DNA from: Clostridiales bacterium | Lineage (GTDB): Bacteria > Bacillota > Clostridia > Christensenellales > Borkfalkiaceae | Reading direction: 5' to 3' | Length of the DNA stretch: 42,896 bases | Assembly: GCA_015069495.1 (NCBI GenBank) | Contig: SVIN01000015.1 | Location: 1 to 42,896, forward strand | Part shown: positions 765-26,185 of the stretch, one piece after another | Position numbering within the stretch: position 1 is the stretch's first letter | Layout: each line of letters starts with the position of its first letter | Notes under the pieces: model-generated | Seen by the model: the letters and a program-made list of their open reading frames with translations, nothing else | The model's database searches: none | Told to the model about the DNA's origin: nothing | Program-made: the position numbers and the translations under genes

Positions 765-1451
765 ATGTCAATGAGAATGAGAAAAAAGAGAAACTTTGAC
801 GCGCGTATGGATGCGTGCGGGGATTTGTTGCTTGCGAAGGGCGCAAACGGTATACTCAACATGAAAGAGGCGGCGGAAAATTACCGTGCGCTTATCGATT
901 TCCAAACTGCTTTTGGTAACAACCAACCCGTGGCTCTTGAAATCGGTTGCGGGAAGGGGGGCTTTGTTATTGAACTTGCAAAGCAGACTCCTACCGTCAA
1001 TTACTTGGCGTTGGAAAAAATGAGCAACGTCATTTTAACGCCCATGGAAGAAGTGAAAAAACAAGGGGTGGAAAACGTGCGTTTCCTCAATATCCGCGCA
1101 GAATGTCTGCCTTGTTATATCCCCGAACATAGTTTGGACGTAATTTATTTGAACTTTTCCACGCCATTGCCCAAGCTTGGTTATGCAAACCAACGCTTGA
1201 CGCATCGTAATTTCTTGGAAGTTTACAAGAAACTCTTGAAAGCGGGCGGGAAAATTATTCAAAAAACGGACGATAGGGATTTCTTTGATTTCTCCTTGGA
1301 AGAATATCAAGCATGCGGGTATGCATTGACGGAAGTTTCCTATAACTTGCACGAAAACGGTAACCCGGATTGGAATATCGTGACTGAGTACGAACAGAAG
1401 TGGGTAGAACGCGGGTTGCCGATTCACCGTGTCGTTGCCAAGCTGAACTGA
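765..1451 (+). CDS. trmB: TrmB-like tRNA (guanine-N7)-methyltransferase, altered active-site motif
   Basis: The 228-residue product matches the TrmB family, which uses S-adenosylmethionine to methylate G46 in the tRNA variable loop. Visible family marks are the N-terminal MRMRKK, the SAM loop EIGCGKGGF, and the C-terminal TEYEQKWVERGLPIHR, close to the family's TxYExKF...G.PI.R. The usual NF(S/C)DPWPK motif reads NFSTPLPK (residues 130-137), so the conserved acidic residue thought to be catalytic is Thr and the Trp is Leu. The RHxKRRLT stretch reads GYANQRLTH, and the usual NIDAD reads NIRAE. The start at 765 is backed by AAGGAG at 747-752. The fold is clear; activity is uncertain. It is followed by a strong terminator. 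Confidence 0.8.
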   Translation: MSMRMRKKRNFDARMDACGDLLLAKGANGILNMKEAAENYRALIDFQTAFGNNQPVALEIGCGKGGFVIELAKQTPTVNYLALEKMSNVILTPMEEVKKQGVENVRFLNIRAECLPCYIPEHSLDVIYLNFSTPLPKLGYANQRLTHRNFLEVYKKLLKAGGKIIQKTDDRDFFDFSLEEYQACGYALTEVSYNLHENGNPDWNIVTEYEQKWVERGLPIHRVVAKLN

Positions 1452-1470
1452 ATTGCATTGTGGAATTTCA

Positions 1471-1497
1471 GGCGGTCGTTCGACCGCCTCCTTTTTT
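1471..1497 (+). terminator. Rho-independent terminator after trmB
   Basis: A perfect GGCGGTCG/CGACCGCC stem with a tiny tt loop is followed by TCCTTTTTT. Confidence 0.92.
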
Positions 1498-1582: not shown

Positions 1583-1611
1583 TTGAAAAAATTCTTTCCT
1601 TGTGTTATAAT
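1583..1611 (+). promoter_or_regulatory. Sigma-A promoter of the hydrogenase-like gene
   Basis: TTGAAA (1583-1588), a 17-bp spacer and TATAAT (1606-1611). An in-frame ATG sits inside this promoter, which is why the gene start is placed downstream at 1667. Confidence 0.88.
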
Positions 1612-1666
1612 ATACAAAATCATTTTTACAATCACGCGCGTACGAGGCGCGCTTGGAAGGAGATTT

Positions 1667-3370
1667 ATGGATTACGTATCGATTGCGTGTGGGAATATGG
1701 CGGTGGAAAATGCGTGGAAGTTGCTTTCCGCCAGCAAAAAAAGAACCTTTGTTGCGGTGCAGGTTTCTCCTGCTGTGCGCGTTTCCATCGGCGAAGCGTT
1801 TGGCTTATACCGCGGTGAAGACGGTATCGGTAAAGTGGCGGCGGCGTTGACTGCGCTCGGCGCGGATGCCGTTGTGGATACGGCGGTTTGTACGGACGCG
1901 ATCACTTTGATGAAGTTAAACGCTCTCAACGCGGGTATCAAACCCGTGTTCTCGTCCGAGTGTACGAGATGGGTGCAAATGGCGAAAGAGGAATATCCGA
2001 CCATCGCGGAAACGTTGTTGCCGTCGGCTACTACCGTATGCGCAAAATTATTAAAAAAATATTATCAGGCGCAGATGCCCGATAAGAAAATCCGCGTAAT
2101 CGCTTTGGAAGCGGGGGCGGGCAAGAAAGCCGATCCCGGTGTGGACGTTGTGTTGACCTTGGATGAGTTGGCGCAGATGCTGACTTTGTTGGGCGTAAAC
2201 ATTCGTCTTATGAAAAAGCAGAGTTTGGAAACGCCGCTTGGCGTGGCTTCGGGCGCGGCGTATATTGCGGCGGCGAGCGGCGGTGATGCGGAAGCGTTGG
2301 CACGTTGCTTGACCAAGGAAAAAACGCAAACCAATTTCCGCAAGTTTGCTTACAGCGGTTTATACGATCACAAGGAACGCCGTGAAGTGGCTTTACAATT
2401 GGATGGCAAGACGTGGAATTTTGCCGTAGTAGATACCTTAGAGGCGGCGCAGGCGGTGGTTGCTGATATTCAATCGGGCGCGAAAACGTATGACTACGTG
2501 GAAGCGACGGCTTGTGAAGGCGGGCAAATCGGCGTTGGGTGTGACTTGTCCAGCGAACAAGGTGAAATGACCAGAAGATTGCGTAAACTTGGTTTACAAT
2601 ACCTTGACCAAGCGCGCGCGGCACGTTCGGCGGATAGTTGTTCGTCTGCGGCGGCGGTTGTAAAGGCATGGAATGCGTTGTGCCGCAGCGGAGAAGCGGC
2701 GGCTTTGGATTTCATCGATGAAATCGTGGACGATCCCGAAGAAATCATCGAAGAAATCATCGAGGAAGTCGTAGAAGACGTAGTGGAAGAAACGGTGGAA
2801 GAAATCGTCGAAGCCATCATTGAAGAAGACGTTCCCGAGGAAATCGTGGAAGAAATCGTCGAAGAAGTGGTGGAAGAGCTCGTGGAAGAGCTTGTCGAGG
2901 AAATCGTTGAAGAGATCGTGGAAGAAATCGTCGAAGAACCTGCGCTGGAAGAATTGAAATGCGTGCAAGAAGAAGTTGTCGAAGAACCTGCGGTTGAGGA
3001 AATTGTAGAAGAAGTTATCGAAGAACCTGCGGTTGAGGAAATCGTGGAAGAGGTTGTCGAAGAACCTGCGGTTGAGGAAATTGTAGAAGAAGTTGTCGAA
3101 GAACCTGCGGTTGAGGAAATCGCAGAAGAGGTTGTCGAAGAACCTGCGGTTGAGGAAACCGTGGAAGAAGTTATCGAAGAACCTAAAGAACCTGAATACA
3201 CGCAGGAAGAATTGCAAACAGCCATCGAACACGTCGAAGAATTTTTGGCGGTTGCGGAAGAAGAACTGACTCCTGTACAAAGGGCGGCGCGCCATATCTA
3301 TTACCGCCGTTTGTCGACTACGGAACGCCGTAAATTGAAGAGAGCAAGAAGAAATCAAAAGAAGAACTAA
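1667..3370 (+). CDS. [FeFe]-hydrogenase catalytic-domain homologue with degraded cluster ligands and an acidic repeat tail
   Basis: The start at 1667 has AAGGAG 5-6 bases upstream; the product is 567 residues. Residues 30-295 align by eye with the H-cluster domain of iron-only hydrogenases: SPAVRVSIGEAFG (34-46), PVFSSECTRWV (93-103, for PMFTSCCPGWV), PLGVASGAAYI (190-200, for the SSGAG stretch), and YDYVEATACEGGQIG (275-289, for YDFIEVMACPGGCIG). Of four cubane cysteine ligands only two remain (C99, C283). The MPCxAKK cysteine is Gly/Ala (near 151), the CPGGC second cysteine is Gln287, and the proton-relay cysteine is Glu98. No ferredoxin domains precede it. Residues ~347-535 are Glu/Val/Ile repeats (EEIVEEVVEE type, with five EEPAVEEIVEEVV units), then a basic tail of about 30 residues. 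Hydrogenase activity is unlikely; the role is unknown. Confidence 0.78.
   Translation: MDYVSIACGNMAVENAWKLLSASKKRTFVAVQVSPAVRVSIGEAFGLYRGEDGIGKVAAALTALGADAVVDTAVCTDAITLMKLNALNAGIKPVFSSECTRWVQMAKEEYPTIAETLLPSATTVCAKLLKKYYQAQMPDKKIRVIALEAGAGKKADPGVDVVLTLDELAQMLTLLGVNIRLMKKQSLETPLGVASGAAYIAAASGGDAEALARCLTKEKTQTNFRKFAYSGLYDHKERREVALQLDGKTWNFAVVDTLEAAQAVVADIQSGAKTYDYVEATACEGGQIGVGCDLSSEQGEMTRRLRKLGLQYLDQARAARSADSCSSAAAVVKAWNALCRSGEAAALDFIDEIVDDPEEIIEEIIEEVVEDVVEETVEEIVEAIIEEDVPEEIVEEIVEEVVEELVEELVEEIVEEIVEEIVEEPALEELKCVQEEVVEEPAVEEIVEEVIEEPAVEEIVEEVVEEPAVEEIVEEVVEEPAVEEIAEEVVEEPAVEETVEEVIEEPKEPEYTQEELQTAIEHVEEFLAVAEEELTPVQRAARHIYYRRLSTTERRKLKRARRNQKKN
2981..3175 (+). repeat. Five 39-bp in-frame tandem units
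   Basis: Each unit encodes EEPAVEEIVEEVV with small changes (I/V, A/V, T/I). Unit starts fall every 39 bases from 2981. The DNA is nearly as conserved as the protein, which suggests recent expansion by slippage or unequal exchange. A looser glutamate-rich repeat precedes it from about 2710. Confidence 0.88.
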
Positions 3371-3431: not shown

Positions 3432-4469
3432 ATGAAAAACATTTTGAAAAAGACAATGGCCATGGTTTGCGCAACGGCTTGCGCAATCGGTTGCATGACG
3501 GGGTGCGTCTTTATAAAAGACAGCGGTAAAGAAAGCGGGAATGACGCCTTGAAAGATATTACGGTGTATATGCCTGACGGCGCGCCCGCGCTTGCTTTGG
3601 CGCAGTTGATGTATGAGGATACCAAAGAGGACGGCGTGGAATATTACGTGGCGAAAGCGGATGCGATTGCATCCAAAGTATCTTACGAGGACGCAACGAA
3701 AAACGCTGATTTTTGCGTGATGCCCTTAAATTTGGCTGCGAAAAATCCCAAGGTGCAGGCAAATTACATGATGCTCGGTTCGGTGACGAACGGCAACTTG
3801 TATATGATATCCAAGACGGAAACGCAGTACACGGCGGATAATTTGTCTTCGTTGATTGGTAAAAAAGTAGGGGTGTTGCAAATCAACAACGTGCCTGGTT
3901 TGACATTTAAGACGGTGCTCAACAACAGTAACGTGGCTTGGGCGGAACTGAAAAATACCGATACTGCGGTTACGGATAAAGTGAATCTCATCGCCCTTGC
4001 AGACGCGTCTGCTGTGGCAACGATGGATGCGGATTGTTTCGTGATTGCCGAACCCGCAGTCACGGCGCAGGTAGCGAAAAACGGATTCCATATCGTAGGG
4101 AATTTACAGACTTTATACAGCGGTGAAAACGGTTATCCGCAGGCGGTGTTGGTGGCAAATAAAGATTTTGTCACCGCGAACGGTGCATGGGTGAAGACTT
4201 TTACAAGTAAAGTAGCAAGTGCGGCAAATTGGTTGAAAACGGCGACGGGGGAACAAATCGTCACGGCAATCAATAGCCACTTGGACGAAACGCTTGGGGA
4301 AACGAGTTTGAAAGCACCCTTGCTTACGGCGGCGACTTTGGCACGTTGCGGGGTGAAGTATATCCCCAGCGCGGATTGTCAATCGGCGGCGGTGAAATTG
4401 TTAGACGAATATATCGGGATTAATCCCACTGCGGCGGCGATTCCGCAGGATGGATTTTTTGCAAAATAA
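3432..4469 (+). CDS. ABC transporter substrate-binding lipoprotein (NitT/TauT-like)
   Basis: The 345-residue product has a lipoprotein signal peptide: basic MKNILKK, a hydrophobic stretch, and lipobox CMTGC with the acylated Cys at residue 25. The mature part (DITVYMPDGAPALALAQLM, then GKKVGVLQINNVPGLTF and a C-terminal CGVKYIPS region) resembles periplasmic-binding-like folds of the nitrate/sulfonate/thiamine-precursor group. It would sit on the outer face of the membrane and hand ligand to the permease encoded 12 bases downstream. AAGGAG precedes the ATG at 3432. The substrate cannot be read from the sequence. Confidence 0.82.
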   Translation: MKNILKKTMAMVCATACAIGCMTGCVFIKDSGKESGNDALKDITVYMPDGAPALALAQLMYEDTKEDGVEYYVAKADAIASKVSYEDATKNADFCVMPLNLAAKNPKVQANYMMLGSVTNGNLYMISKTETQYTADNLSSLIGKKVGVLQINNVPGLTFKTVLNNSNVAWAELKNTDTAVTDKVNLIALADASAVATMDADCFVIAEPAVTAQVAKNGFHIVGNLQTLYSGENGYPQAVLVANKDFVTANGAWVKTFTSKVASAANWLKTATGEQIVTAINSHLDETLGETSLKAPLLTAATLARCGVKYIPSADCQSAAVKLLDEYIGINPTAAAIPQDGFFAK

Positions 4470-4481
4470 TTAGGTGAACGA

Positions 4482-5237
4482 ATGAAGAAGCTGATTTGGA
4501 AAAACGTAGCGCAGACCTTGGAGGCGATTGGATTTTTGCTGATCGTCTGGTTTGTCGCGTACCGAGCGGTGGGCAATACGGAATTGATTCCGCCCCTTTC
4601 CGACAGCTTAAAAGAGATGGGCGGTTTGCTGGTCAGCGGGGATGTATGGTCGGCGATGGGAATGACTTTACTGCGCACGTTCAGTGCGTTTACAATCTCC
4701 TTTGCCTTGGCGGTAGGGTTTGCCGTTTTGGCGTACGTATATCCCGCGGCGGGGAACTTTCTCGCACCTTTGGTATCTGCGCTTCGGTCGATGCCCGTGT
4801 TGGCGGTGTTGCTGATTTTGCTCTCCTTTTTAGGGGCGGGAAAAGCCCCGATGGCGGTGGCGTTTTTATCCCTATTCCCGATGTTGTATGCGGGGATTTT
4901 GGCGGGATTGTCGAGTGTGGACAAGCATTTGATTGAAATCAGCAGAGTGTATGCCACCCCTCTTTGGCGTAAAGTAACAGCAATTTATCTGCCCTTATCC
5001 GCGCCCTATATTTTGCAAGAATCGGCGGCGGCACTGTCCTTTGCTTTGAAATTGATTGTGTCGGCTGAGGTGCTGAGTTTCACGGCAACCAGCCTTGGCG
5101 GTATGATGCAAGAGGCGAAAATTTACAGTGAAATCCCACAATTGTTTGCGTTGGTAGGGTTGAGTTTTTTGCTTGGCTTGATTTTGGAAACGGCGGTATC
5201 GTTGCTTGCGAGTGCGGTGGAAAAACGGATGAGGTAA
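4482..5237 (+). CDS. ABC transporter permease (SsuC/TauC-like)
   Basis: The 251-residue integral membrane protein has about six hydrophobic segments and the EAA-loop-like signature around EISRVYATPLWRKVTAIYLP (residues about 151-170), which docks on the ATPase in this family. It is 12 bases after the substrate-binding gene, so the two are almost certainly cotranscribed. No ATP-binding gene follows; the next stretch is a short broken frame and then repeats. The permease may borrow an ATPase encoded elsewhere, or the system may be decaying. Confidence 0.85.
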   Translation: MKKLIWKNVAQTLEAIGFLLIVWFVAYRAVGNTELIPPLSDSLKEMGGLLVSGDVWSAMGMTLLRTFSAFTISFALAVGFAVLAYVYPAAGNFLAPLVSALRSMPVLAVLLILLSFLGAGKAPMAVAFLSLFPMLYAGILAGLSSVDKHLIEISRVYATPLWRKVTAIYLPLSAPYILQESAAALSFALKLIVSAEVLSFTATSLGGMMQEAKIYSEIPQLFALVGLSFLLGLILETAVSLLASAVEKRMR

Positions 5238-5243
5238 GGAAGT

Positions 5244-5448
5244 ATGCCGTTTACTTTTACAGATGGAAAAGGCGTGTCGGTTTCTTATGCAATATCTGCA
5301 TTGGACGAGGCGGGGCTTTTTCGTGTGGACTTGTTCATCTGTCCGTCAAGAAGGGGATGAACGGCAGACCACTCAAAAATGGATACACGTAATTCTTGGG
5401 GCGGTGTTGGTTGTTGTGTTACTTGTGTTATTTTTACTGTGTAATTGA
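5244..5448 (+). pseudogene. Small broken or frameshifted membrane-anchored ORF
   Basis: ATG at 5244 has a good ribosome site (GGTAAGGAAG) six bases after the permease stop and encodes 38 residues (MPFTFTDGKGVSVSYAISAL...) ending at a TGA at 5358-5360. The frame one base over then continues DERQTTQKW and a strong hydrophobic stretch (VILGAVLVVVLLVLFLLC) to a stop at 5446-5448. Removing one G from the run of four near 5353 would join them into a protein of about 67 residues with a C-terminal membrane anchor. It is either a degraded gene, a sequencing error, or two tiny ORFs. It does not look like an ABC ATPase. Confidence 0.4.
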
Positions 5449-5470
5449 GTGGATATACGCCTACTTGAAA

Positions 5471-5545
5471 GACTACTCATCAGTCTTTCGGTTCACTACG
5501 TTTCACTCTCAAGACAGCTTCCCTCACAAGGGAAGCCAAGTTTAG
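5471..5545 (+). repeat. S element, copy 3
   Basis: This is the same 75-bp element as at 92 and 478. The hairpin arms are GCTTCCC/GGGAAGC. It runs directly into CGATAT array C. Confidence 0.8.
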
Positions 5546-5547
5546 GA

Positions 5548-5678
5548 CGATATGCGCTTGACAGCGCGCGATATATTGCTGGCGCAATACGATATACAGC
5601 TTCGCTGTACGATATACGCCTAACGGCGTGCGATATGCGCTTGACAGCGCGCGATATATTGCTGGCGCAATACGATAT
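5548..5678 (+). repeat. CGATAT-hairpin array C, upstream of rex
   Basis: Seven CGATAT boxes (5548, 5569, 5590, 5610, 5631, 5652, 5673) are separated by six hairpins: GCGCT-tgac-AGCGC, ATTGC-tggc-GCAAT, ACAGC-ttc-GCTGT, ACGCC-taac-GGCGT, then the first two again. It is the most regular array in the window and ends 25 bases before the rex start. The last box reads CGATATAAT and so contains a TATAAT hexamer, but no well-spaced -35 was found. Confidence 0.9.
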
Positions 5679-5703
5679 AATGGTGTGCGAGAGGAGATTT
5701 GAC

Positions 5704-24559: not shown

Positions 24560-26185
24560 TTAAAACTTCGCGGAAATGTGCCAGTTATTACCGTACAAAC
24601 CACCGAATAATTCCAAATTCTGCGCTAAGTCCGCGTTGTCGTCCGCGAATTCAAAACGCACGAAAGGCAAACCGTTTTCCTTTGCTTCCAAGTTCACGCC
24701 ATCGATGATGAATTGCATATCCTTGGGTAAGTTCACGCATACGAACTTAGGCGCGCCAAACGCCGTCAGTTTCGGGTTGCTTTGAATTAAGGACAGCGTC
24801 CACTTTACAAACACGCGGAAATTTTCCTTCGTGATGTCTTGTTCGGTTTCGGGGGTAGGGCGTTGCATGAATAAGGGAAGTTTTCTAGGGATTTTCTTCG
24901 CCATTACCTTCGCTTTCGCAGGCGCGGGTTCGGGTTGTTCCGTAGTTTCGTTTTCTTCCGCGGGTGTATTTTCTTCCGTAGCGGGTTCTTCCGCGGGCGT
25001 AGTTTCTTCCGTAGCGGGTTCTTCCGCGGGCGTAGTTTCTTCCGTAGCAGAAGCTTCCGCTGTCTCGGTTTCTTTAACCGCCTGTTCTTCCGTTGCTTCA
25101 CCTTCGTCCGCAGTGCTTTCTTCTGTAGAAGCTTCTTCGTCTTTGGTTTCTTCGGCAGGAGCTTCTTCCGCCTTTTCACTTTCTTCTGCAGGTTCTTCTT
25201 CCGTGGCAGGTTCTTCCGTCTTTTCTACTTCTTCCGTAGGGGCGGGTTCTTCTACGGCTTCCGTTTCTTCCGCAGGTGCGGTAATTTCCGTAACCGCGAC
25301 TTCTTCCGCAACCGTTTTTTTAACGGGTTTCATGTCTTCGTCATCGTCATCCCAATCGTTATTCATGGACATCATCGCGTCCAAATTTACACTTTCGGTC
25401 ATTTCGCCAACGTGTTCGTTGTCCAAAACGGATAGTTTTTTCGACTTAGCGCGTTCGCGTGCGTTCAATACCGTCAATTCCGCCATGCTGTGGTCGAATA
25501 ACATATCTTCCTGCACGTATTTAGGGGTAGAAAGGAATTCCATGCCAAAGGGAAGGGGGTAAGAGCCCACGCATCTGCCATCCGCCACGAAAATGAAACG
25601 GGAATATACGTCCTTGATATCCAAGAAGAGATAACTTTCGTTTTTCCACTTGGGGTTCAAGGTAGCAACCGCGGTGACAGTAGAAGCCGACGCATAAGTC
25701 AAAACGTCCGCATACAGTTTATTTTCCGAGCATACGGTGTAGAGGGAGTTTAATACTTTTTCCTGAATCGCCGTTACGCTGTAGGTGCAGTATTGTCTGT
25801 TCTTTTCCACCTGAAAAGTACGGATCTCGAGATCGTCGCGGTTGAGGTAAATTTCCGACAGCTTGGTGTCGAGCAAATTTTTGATGAGTTTATGCGAGCG
25901 AAGAGTCGGCAAGCGCACGTTATCAAGCGCAGCGACTTCGTCAGGCACAACAAATGCGATTTGACGAACGGTTTCCGAGGGATTGTTTTCGACGAACTTT
26001 TCGACGACGTTGGCGAATTTCTTGTAGAAGTCTTCGGTAAAGGATGCGCCCGTATAATTTTGTACAGTATGCACGACGGACTTCACGTCATCGCCCAAAA
26101 CGTTGTATTGGTGGAATGCGCCGCGGCGCATATCAATACCTAAAACAGTCATATAGGGAAAGGGAGTGCTTTGTTTTCTAGCCAT
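24560..26185 (-). CDS. PilM-like pilus assembly protein with a large acidic insertion
   Basis: The 541-residue product begins VLGIDMRRGAFHQYNVLG, resembling the actin-like ATPase fold of PilM. Residues 1-270 contain a second phosphate-like loop region (SYLFLDIKDVYSRFIFV). Residues about 279-425 are an acidic Glu/Thr/Pro/Ala stretch with EEPATEETTPA repeats, certainly disordered. Residues 430-541 return to an ordered fold (KWTLSLIQSNPKLTAFGAPK to the end). PilM normally links cytoplasmic and membrane parts of the machine through PilN, which is not recognisable here. The gene overlaps the pilin-like gene upstream by eight bases. PilM identity is inferred from fold-like segments and position. 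Confidence 0.6.
   Translation of the reverse strand: MARKQSTPFPYMTVLGIDMRRGAFHQYNVLGDDVKSVVHTVQNYTGASFTEDFYKKFANVVEKFVENNPSETVRQIAFVVPDEVAALDNVRLPTLRSHKLIKNLLDTKLSEIYLNRDDLEIRTFQVEKNRQYCTYSVTAIQEKVLNSLYTVCSENKLYADVLTYASASTVTAVATLNPKWKNESYLFLDIKDVYSRFIFVADGRCVGSYPLPFGMEFLSTPKYVQEDMLFDHSMAELTVLNARERAKSKKLSVLDNEHVGEMTESVNLDAMMSMNNDWDDDDEDMKPVKKTVAEEVAVTEITAPAEETEAVEEPAPTEEVEKTEEPATEEEPAEESEKAEEAPAEETKDEEASTEESTADEGEATEEQAVKETETAEASATEETTPAEEPATEETTPAEEPATEENTPAEENETTEQPEPAPAKAKVMAKKIPRKLPLFMQRPTPETEQDITKENFRVFVKWTLSLIQSNPKLTAFGAPKFVCVNLPKDMQFIIDGVNLEAKENGLPFVRFEFADDNADLAQNLELFGGLYGNNWHISAKF

Follow-up and report, generated by a model that had tools for sequence, protein, structure and literature searches.

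A proposed lineage-specific pseudohydrogenase derived from [FeFe]-hydrogenases, with a charged tail and a possible role as scaffold or tether

The window, the whole 42,896-nucleotide stretch of DNA analyzed here, carries a gene whose product is well supported as a pseudoenzyme. Its derivation from a hydrogenase, proposed in the original prediction, is borne out by fold listings and by losses of active-site residues that are shared with relatives under purifying selection. The explanation we consider best, at slightly under an even chance, is a lineage-specific pseudohydrogenase that has been reused as a scaffold or tether. A search of the full-text literature, covering few subscription journals, found no report of this pseudohydrogenase family, and the accessible portion of PMC12578642 contains nothing on it.

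Results

A hydrogenase fold without a complete ligand set

Residues 29 to 288 of the window protein (Table 1) matched the Pfam model Fe_hyd_lg_C at 3.7e-39, and the closest PDB entry by sequence was HydA1 of the bifurcating HydABC complex (8.3e-31). The predicted structure of the hydrogenase domain was confident; the underlying alignment used 42 of 80 related loci and contained 41 hydrogenases, which biases the model toward the hydrogenase fold. When this model was searched with Foldseek, and the Foldseek rows alone were re-examined with VIA-align, hydrogenase catalytic subunits filled the 50 rows listed by either method. A better non-hydrogenase fold was rejected, none being present among those 50 rows, and the predicted [FeFe]-hydrogenase catalytic fold was thus upheld by the Pfam match, the confident model, and the fold comparison that the original prediction had suggested. 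The best NCBIfam model, FeFe_hydrog_A6, scored 154 bits, far below its cut-off of 765, and TIGR02512 scored 138.5 bits without reaching its cut-off of 406. The remaining Pfam matches (DUF445, GerD, and DUF7018) were under their own cut-offs and lay on the repetitive tail, and Pfam matched no PAS or other signaling domain in the 567 aa. Because just 28 residues precede the Pfam match, the protein has no ferredoxin domains, again as predicted. A chance match is excluded by the E-values together with nine more orthologues of the same layout.

CpI numbering was set by phmmer alignment to CpI (6glz_A). Judged as a group A [FeFe]-hydrogenase, the window protein has the Fe_hyd_lg_C catalytic fold, reads C, G, C, and Q at cubane positions C300, C355, C499, and C503 in place of four cysteines, and carries a glutamate (Glu98) in place of the proton-relay cysteine C299; F417 is replaced by Ala201 in the same alignment. 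The claimed loss of two cubane cysteines and the relay cysteine therefore held, with Gly as the residue at 355. With two of its four cubane ligands gone, the window copy cannot hold a normal H-cluster. The group A enzymes HydA1 of HydABC (8a6t) and CpI share with it the catalytic fold, at 22 to 28% identity in structural alignments, and 14 structural residues kept throughout the family. Unlike them, it lacks M353, F417, and M497 besides the relay cysteine, half of the cubane ligands, and the ferredoxin domains, and has gained an acidic tail and a basic end.

Table 1. Features of the pseudohydrogenase locus, in window coordinates
Feature	Position	Strand	Remarks
trmB, upstream neighbor	765..1451	+	Presumably tRNA guanine-N7 methyltransferase; Pfam Methyltransf_4
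Terminator-like hairpin between trmB and pseudohydrogenase gene	1470..1489	+	
Promoter-like site, TTGAAA-17-TATAAT	1583..1611	+	TG before -10; 11/12 matches
RBS, AAGGAG	1657..1662	+	4 bases 5' of ATG; read from the letters
Pseudohydrogenase gene	1667..3370	+	ATG 1667, stop 3370, 567 aa; nine orthologues in genus
Hydrogenase catalytic-domain fold, residues 11-345	1697..2701	+	
L1 loop, SSECTRW (CpI TSCCPxW)	1952..1972	+	C299 to Glu98; C300 kept as Cys99
L2 loop, LEAGAGKK (CpI MPCxxK)	2105..2128	+	M353 to Glu148; C355 to Gly150; K358 kept
L3 loop, EATACEGGQIGVGC (CpI ExMACxxGC)	2501..2542	+	M497 to Thr281; C499 kept as Cys283; C503 to Gln287; new Cys292
Acidic Glu/Val(Ile/Pro) tail, residues 352-540	2720..3286	+	Net charge -80
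Basic end, YYRRLSTTERRKLKRARRNQKKN, residues 545-567	3299..3367	+	Last 23 residues, charge +10; motif common to 7/7 complete tails
Putative ABC substrate-binding lipoprotein, downstream neighbor	3432..4469	+	No Pfam match; by eye and context
ABC permease, BPD_transp_1	4482..5237	+	

Repeated ligand loss within a single clade

A family profile built from six members was run against the 398 genomes available for the bacterial family, and the best loci were inspected. Members were recovered from ten genomes of uncultured gut bacteria, all in the window's genus (57 genomes; Table 2). This number is a minimum, as very divergent members could be missed among low-scoring matches, and most genomes searched were incomplete MAGs, the window's own (G000) being 76% complete. 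At E <= 1e-3, 368 of the 398 genomes matched the pseudohydrogenase-domain profile, mostly through ordinary hydrogenase-like proteins where these were inspected, and ten weakly matching genomes of the genus carried a group-B-like hydrogenase rather than a family member. A scan beyond the genus gave one family member (L069) among the best 80 of 529 confirmed stretches, the other 79 keeping all five positions; L069 is the same contig as G345, a Clostridia MAG from sheep colon. No family members were found in IMG/VR, and three matches to phage records had 27 to 32% identity. In G026, a close genome without the gene, no gene remnant was seen by eye in the 459-bp gap.

With ligand columns masked, the ten members formed one clade (support 100/100, and 100% of 200 bootstrap trees), which was not sister to the genus's own HydA. 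Of 134 rows, 80 entered the quick tree and 34 the careful one; L043, on the same contig as L069, was left out of trees and counts, and L051, with two in-frame stops, was left out of the ligand table.

Table 2. Residues at hydrogenase ligand and relay positions in the ten family members (CpI numbering)
Member	299	300	355	499	503
G000 (window), G345, G011	E	C	G	C	Q
G004	E	C	G	C	C
G035	E	C	G	K	C
G344	R	C	C	C	C
G347	A	C	C	C	C
G333	Q	K	C	N	C
G007	P	H	A	C	C
G010	P	R	S	C	C

C299, M353, F417, and M497 were absent in all ten members. At least one cubane cysteine was lost in eight of them. As we read the tree, this took seven losses or more, of which positions 300, 355, and 499 account for two apiece and position 503 for one or more; the count of four changes at position 300 includes Ser types outside the family. 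Loss of C299 required one change at the family base. Outside the family, 123/123 aligned rows keep positions 299, 355, 499, and 503, the cysteines of non-family loci L049 to L068 (L051 excluded) among them, and position 300 is Cys in 99 rows and Ser in 24. From the tree, we infer that loss of the pocket residues preceded that of the cubane ligands, which disappeared in parallel. Retention was also uneven across the domain. A set of 78 sites is conserved in 90% or more of hydrogenases. Of these, the 17 assigned, following work on CpI, to the active site or proton path were kept on average in 3.4 of ten members, compared with 6.0 for the remaining 61 (p 0.0025); six of these 61 were also lost in all ten members, three of the six at the domain's end. 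Fourteen hydrogenase-conserved residues (R38, G50, G65, D71, D77, E167, G205, G206, E209, R213, G271, E279, G286, and R306) were kept in 10/10.

The window copy has its losses at 299 and 355 in common with its four closest relatives and is therefore not a recent wreck. The original prediction had tied that reading to orthologues with all four cysteines; such orthologues do exist (G344 and G347), but both also lack C299, M353, F417, and M497. Since these two keep the four cubane cysteines and the other members two or three, some members may hold an iron-sulfur cluster. The main rival to our reading is a retained or rebuilt iron-sulfur site, in which a cubane or [2Fe-2S] cluster is still bound via reduced or altered ligands, making the protein a redox or oxygen sensor or a cluster carrier, as proposed for Nar1. 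Beyond the two complete ligand sets, it draws on a five-member subclade that keeps C300 in 5/5 and C499 in 4/5 members and has cysteines without hydrogenase counterpart at residues 125 (5/5), 214 (5/5, also G344), and 292 (4/5), and on excerpts of PMC12621388 in which Nar1 holds clusters without a 2Fe site. However, not one cysteine is shared by the whole family, and G333, G007, G010, and the window protein keep only two of the four ligands, so that we consider the rival possible, at a little over one chance in four.

Purifying selection and a charged C terminus

The survey of orthologues suggested in the original prediction thus recovered overlapping losses, and these occur in proteins under purifying selection. 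Five members compared pairwise gave dN/dS (NG86) values for the domain of 0.11 to 0.28 in nine of the ten pairs, dS being saturated in the last, and the value for G007 and G010 was 0.19; dS was high and these values are rough, yet far from 1. The adjoining trmB gave 0.03 to 0.13 in 6/11 pairs with finite dS, the domain evolving several times faster. Conservation and dN/dS together indicate that the fold is maintained.

A site resembling a promoter lies 3' of the terminator-like hairpin that splits the gene from trmB (Table 1), in agreement with the claim that the gene has its own promoter, which we regard as predicted; promoter-like sites of any quality numbered three in the region against 1.5 expected from shuffles. 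Directly 5' of the RBS is a GC-rich inverted repeat (GCGCG..CGCGC, window positions 1635-1655). GC-rich stretches also occur in the leaders of three orthologues, and a conserved 5'-leader hairpin was not found, as the window leader alone beat shuffles (z -2.5; z -0.9 to 0.35 in the three orthologues).

If the gene were a hydrogenase out of use and on its way to being lost, then the parallel ligand losses, the presence of the gene in just 10 of 57 genus genomes, and its faster evolution relative to trmB would be expected. Such decay is nonetheless highly improbable: frames are open in 10/10 members (three tails running off contig ends), including the window copy, dN/dS is well under 1, a promoter-like site and an RBS precede the window gene, the 14 hydrogenase-conserved residues persist, and a conserved end motif lies far downstream.

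This motif, S-x-x-[ED]-R-[RK]-K-x-K-[RK] after [YN][YH], closes 7/7 complete tails, the remaining three tails running off contig ends, and it stays at the end while the length of the spacer varies. The Glu/Val acidic tail and basic end of the original prediction were both recovered (Table 1), and by a sliding-window rule the acidic part of the window protein spans 205 residues with a charge of -81. Across the family, including tails cut at contig ends, acidic parts run from 156 to 434 residues and charges from -68 to -189; the end of G333 was missed by the search pattern, and its acidic figures include the basic end. The full-length model places helices at residues 357-387 and 391-421 of the tail, and pLDDT is below 50 at 420-510. 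In G344 (L149) the motif occurs twice, an internal copy being followed by another acidic stretch, and this duplication suggests that the basic end is a working module. It may, alternatively, simply pair with the acidic spacer. No second copy of the basic end was detected in the window's own genome at E <= 10, and no solved structure matching it was found. Elsewhere in the window, a 541-aa protein without Pfam match (24560-26185, minus strand) has its own acidic Glu/Pro/Thr repeat insert and adjoins a gene row resembling type IV pilus/type II secretion systems (T2SSE, T2SSF, and a prepilin peptidase); such repeats may be widespread in the genome.

The charged tail could itself be the functional part, as a charge brush, a cation or iron buffer, or a surface-charge device, with the fold as a mere stable carrier. 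A long, strongly charged tail in all ten members fits this idea, but the domain too is under purifying selection, and we rate it improbable.

Origin of the layout and gene context

The N terminus of G347 retains traces of a longer ancestor. Its protein starts at a GTG after AGGAGG, begins MSYIVIDGEERE, and continues with AVCPTGAMTI, while L009, a full-length relative, begins with MAYMIIDG and carries AVCPTGAICI immediately N-terminal to the catalytic domain. The G347 N terminus (MSYIVIDG..AVCPTGA) thus matches both ends of the L009 ferredoxin region with the middle gone, nearly 190 residues, including the ferredoxin-type cysteines, being absent relative to L009.

Upstream of the family gene, trmB was present in 10/10 genomes, with an iron-alcohol-dehydrogenase-like gene between the two in G007, G010, and G347 (L036, L037, and L151; the G347 copy matches Pfam Fe-ADH). 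Downstream, in the window and in the six others with a long enough contig, came the substrate-binding protein and permease. Among 30 substrate-binding-protein loci examined, 23 came from genomes without the family gene, and 21 of these 23 had trmB adjoining. The family gene is inserted into, or was lost from, a stable gene row. Because the row is the same with or without the pseudohydrogenase gene, the neighbors are uninformative on function, and a function read from them was rejected. Following the permease in the window (5237-5686) is Rex, no ATPase gene being noticed between, and the permease-Rex gap among relatives ranges from about 15 bases (L154) to about 1000 (L149). In G005 and G014 (L184 and L185), a group-B-like hydrogenase shares this neighborhood, where rex (in G005 also adhE) separates it from trmB and the substrate-binding protein.

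Maturases and other hydrogenases

HydG was found in none of the ten family genomes and in none of the 37 genus genomes among 61 relatives. Across the 398 genomes of the bacterial family, 27 matched HydG, none of them from the window's genus (57 genomes), and one exceeded the cut-off. No HydE match exceeded the cut-off in the 37 genus genomes, G000 (2.3e-4) and G004 giving partial sub-threshold matches, and among the 61 relatives four order-level genomes, identical for HydG and HydE, were alone in exceeding the cut-offs. HydF was over cut-off in 0/10 family genomes, where listed matches reached only profile position 185 of 392. Each maturase search was over cut-off in one of 14 control genomes, with T. 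maritima among the matching controls. Incomplete genomes alone would hardly explain so even an absence, and the window's own genome, incomplete as it is, likewise gave no HydG and neither HydE nor HydF over cut-off.

All ten other genus genomes checked encode a group-B-like hydrogenase whose L1 and L3 cysteines are intact and, where tested, no HydG; TIGR04105 was the best model in the two such hydrogenases scanned. Either these HydG-less relatives use another route to the H-cluster, or their proteins work without the two-iron site. Because they keep intact cluster motifs, an unrecognized maturation route is possible, and maturase absence is weaker evidence than ligand loss, which is the stronger argument for the status of the window protein. 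The maturase check put forward in the original prediction therefore stands as to HydG, in 0/57 genus genomes, and says less about the pseudohydrogenase than it appears to. In excerpts of PMC9431212, HydE and HydF alone give about 1% activation. Separately, the window's own genome has a HydC-HydB-HydA-like row recognized by eye (L038:5830-9980, G000:C50), whose HydA reads TSCSPGW with Ser at C300, a motif mentioned in the accessible part of PMC3787301.

These data bear on whether the protein is a slow or sensory [FeFe]-hydrogenase that, in the manner of HydS from group C/D, has an altered pocket but still senses or turns over H2. As described in portions of PMC8163306 and PMC10055695, where C299, M353, M497, and F417 figure as pocket residues, HydS has C299, M353, and M497 altered too, a feature common to HydS and the window protein. 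The four ligands kept by G344 and G347, the intact hydrogenase motifs of HydG-less genus genomes, which make maturase absence indecisive, and a hydrogenase activity of Nar1 homologues made in E. coli, cited in the part of PMC12621388 available, point the same way. By contrast, HydS keeps its H-cluster-ligating cysteines according to the same portion of PMC10055695, whereas 8/10 members here do not; the window protein lacks cubane cysteines 355 and 503 and a PAS domain, nor does it have a ferredoxin domain, and HydG was found in 0/57 genus genomes, HydE over cut-off in 0/37, and HydF in 0/10. A sensory or slow enzyme is quite improbable. We favor a putative scaffold over a sensor.

Discussion

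Within the ancestry, losses, selection, and layout that we observed, a single history may be outlined. The family would have arisen a single time in the genus, its ancestor being a complete [FeFe]-hydrogenase with ferredoxin domains. Most of the N-terminal iron-sulfur domain would have been deleted, the residues around the two-iron site replaced, and an acidic spacer and basic end added, after which the cubane cysteines would have decayed in parallel, species by species. In the resulting protein, the HydA fold, for which we infer the absence of any cluster in the cell, could act as a docking module; a long, strongly negative spacer would join it to a short positive helix, which might grip a polyanion such as nucleic acid, the ribosome, or an anionic membrane. 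The whole protein would then be a non-catalytic tether or scaffold with a putative partner at either end. No binding partner was found.

A close parallel is Nar1/CIAO3, a eukaryotic hydrogenase homologue without the 2Fe site whose organisms are said to lack maturases, and which, in the accessible text of PMC12621388, keeps two conserved Cys cluster sites, one of them ferredoxin-like and N-terminal. The present protein, by contrast with that description, has a broken cubane site and has had its ferredoxin part deleted. Recycled hydrogenases might even constitute a new class of non-catalytic tethering proteins, with a cluster-free HydA fold and an extended polyanionic spacer leading to a tip that grips polyanions, and the ten species would then represent stages from four cubane cysteines to two; we offer this broader view as doubtful, at less than one chance in three.

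Whereas eukaryotic hydrogenase homologues without hydrogenase function (Nar1, as portrayed in excerpts of the literature) keep their iron-sulfur sites, a bacterial lineage here loses the ligands repeatedly with the fold under selection. Since the intermediate states persist in living species, the order of loss, pocket first and ligands later, is directly testable. A Pfam hydrogenase match in gut metagenomic data does not by itself imply hydrogen metabolism, especially in a bacterial family almost without HydG.
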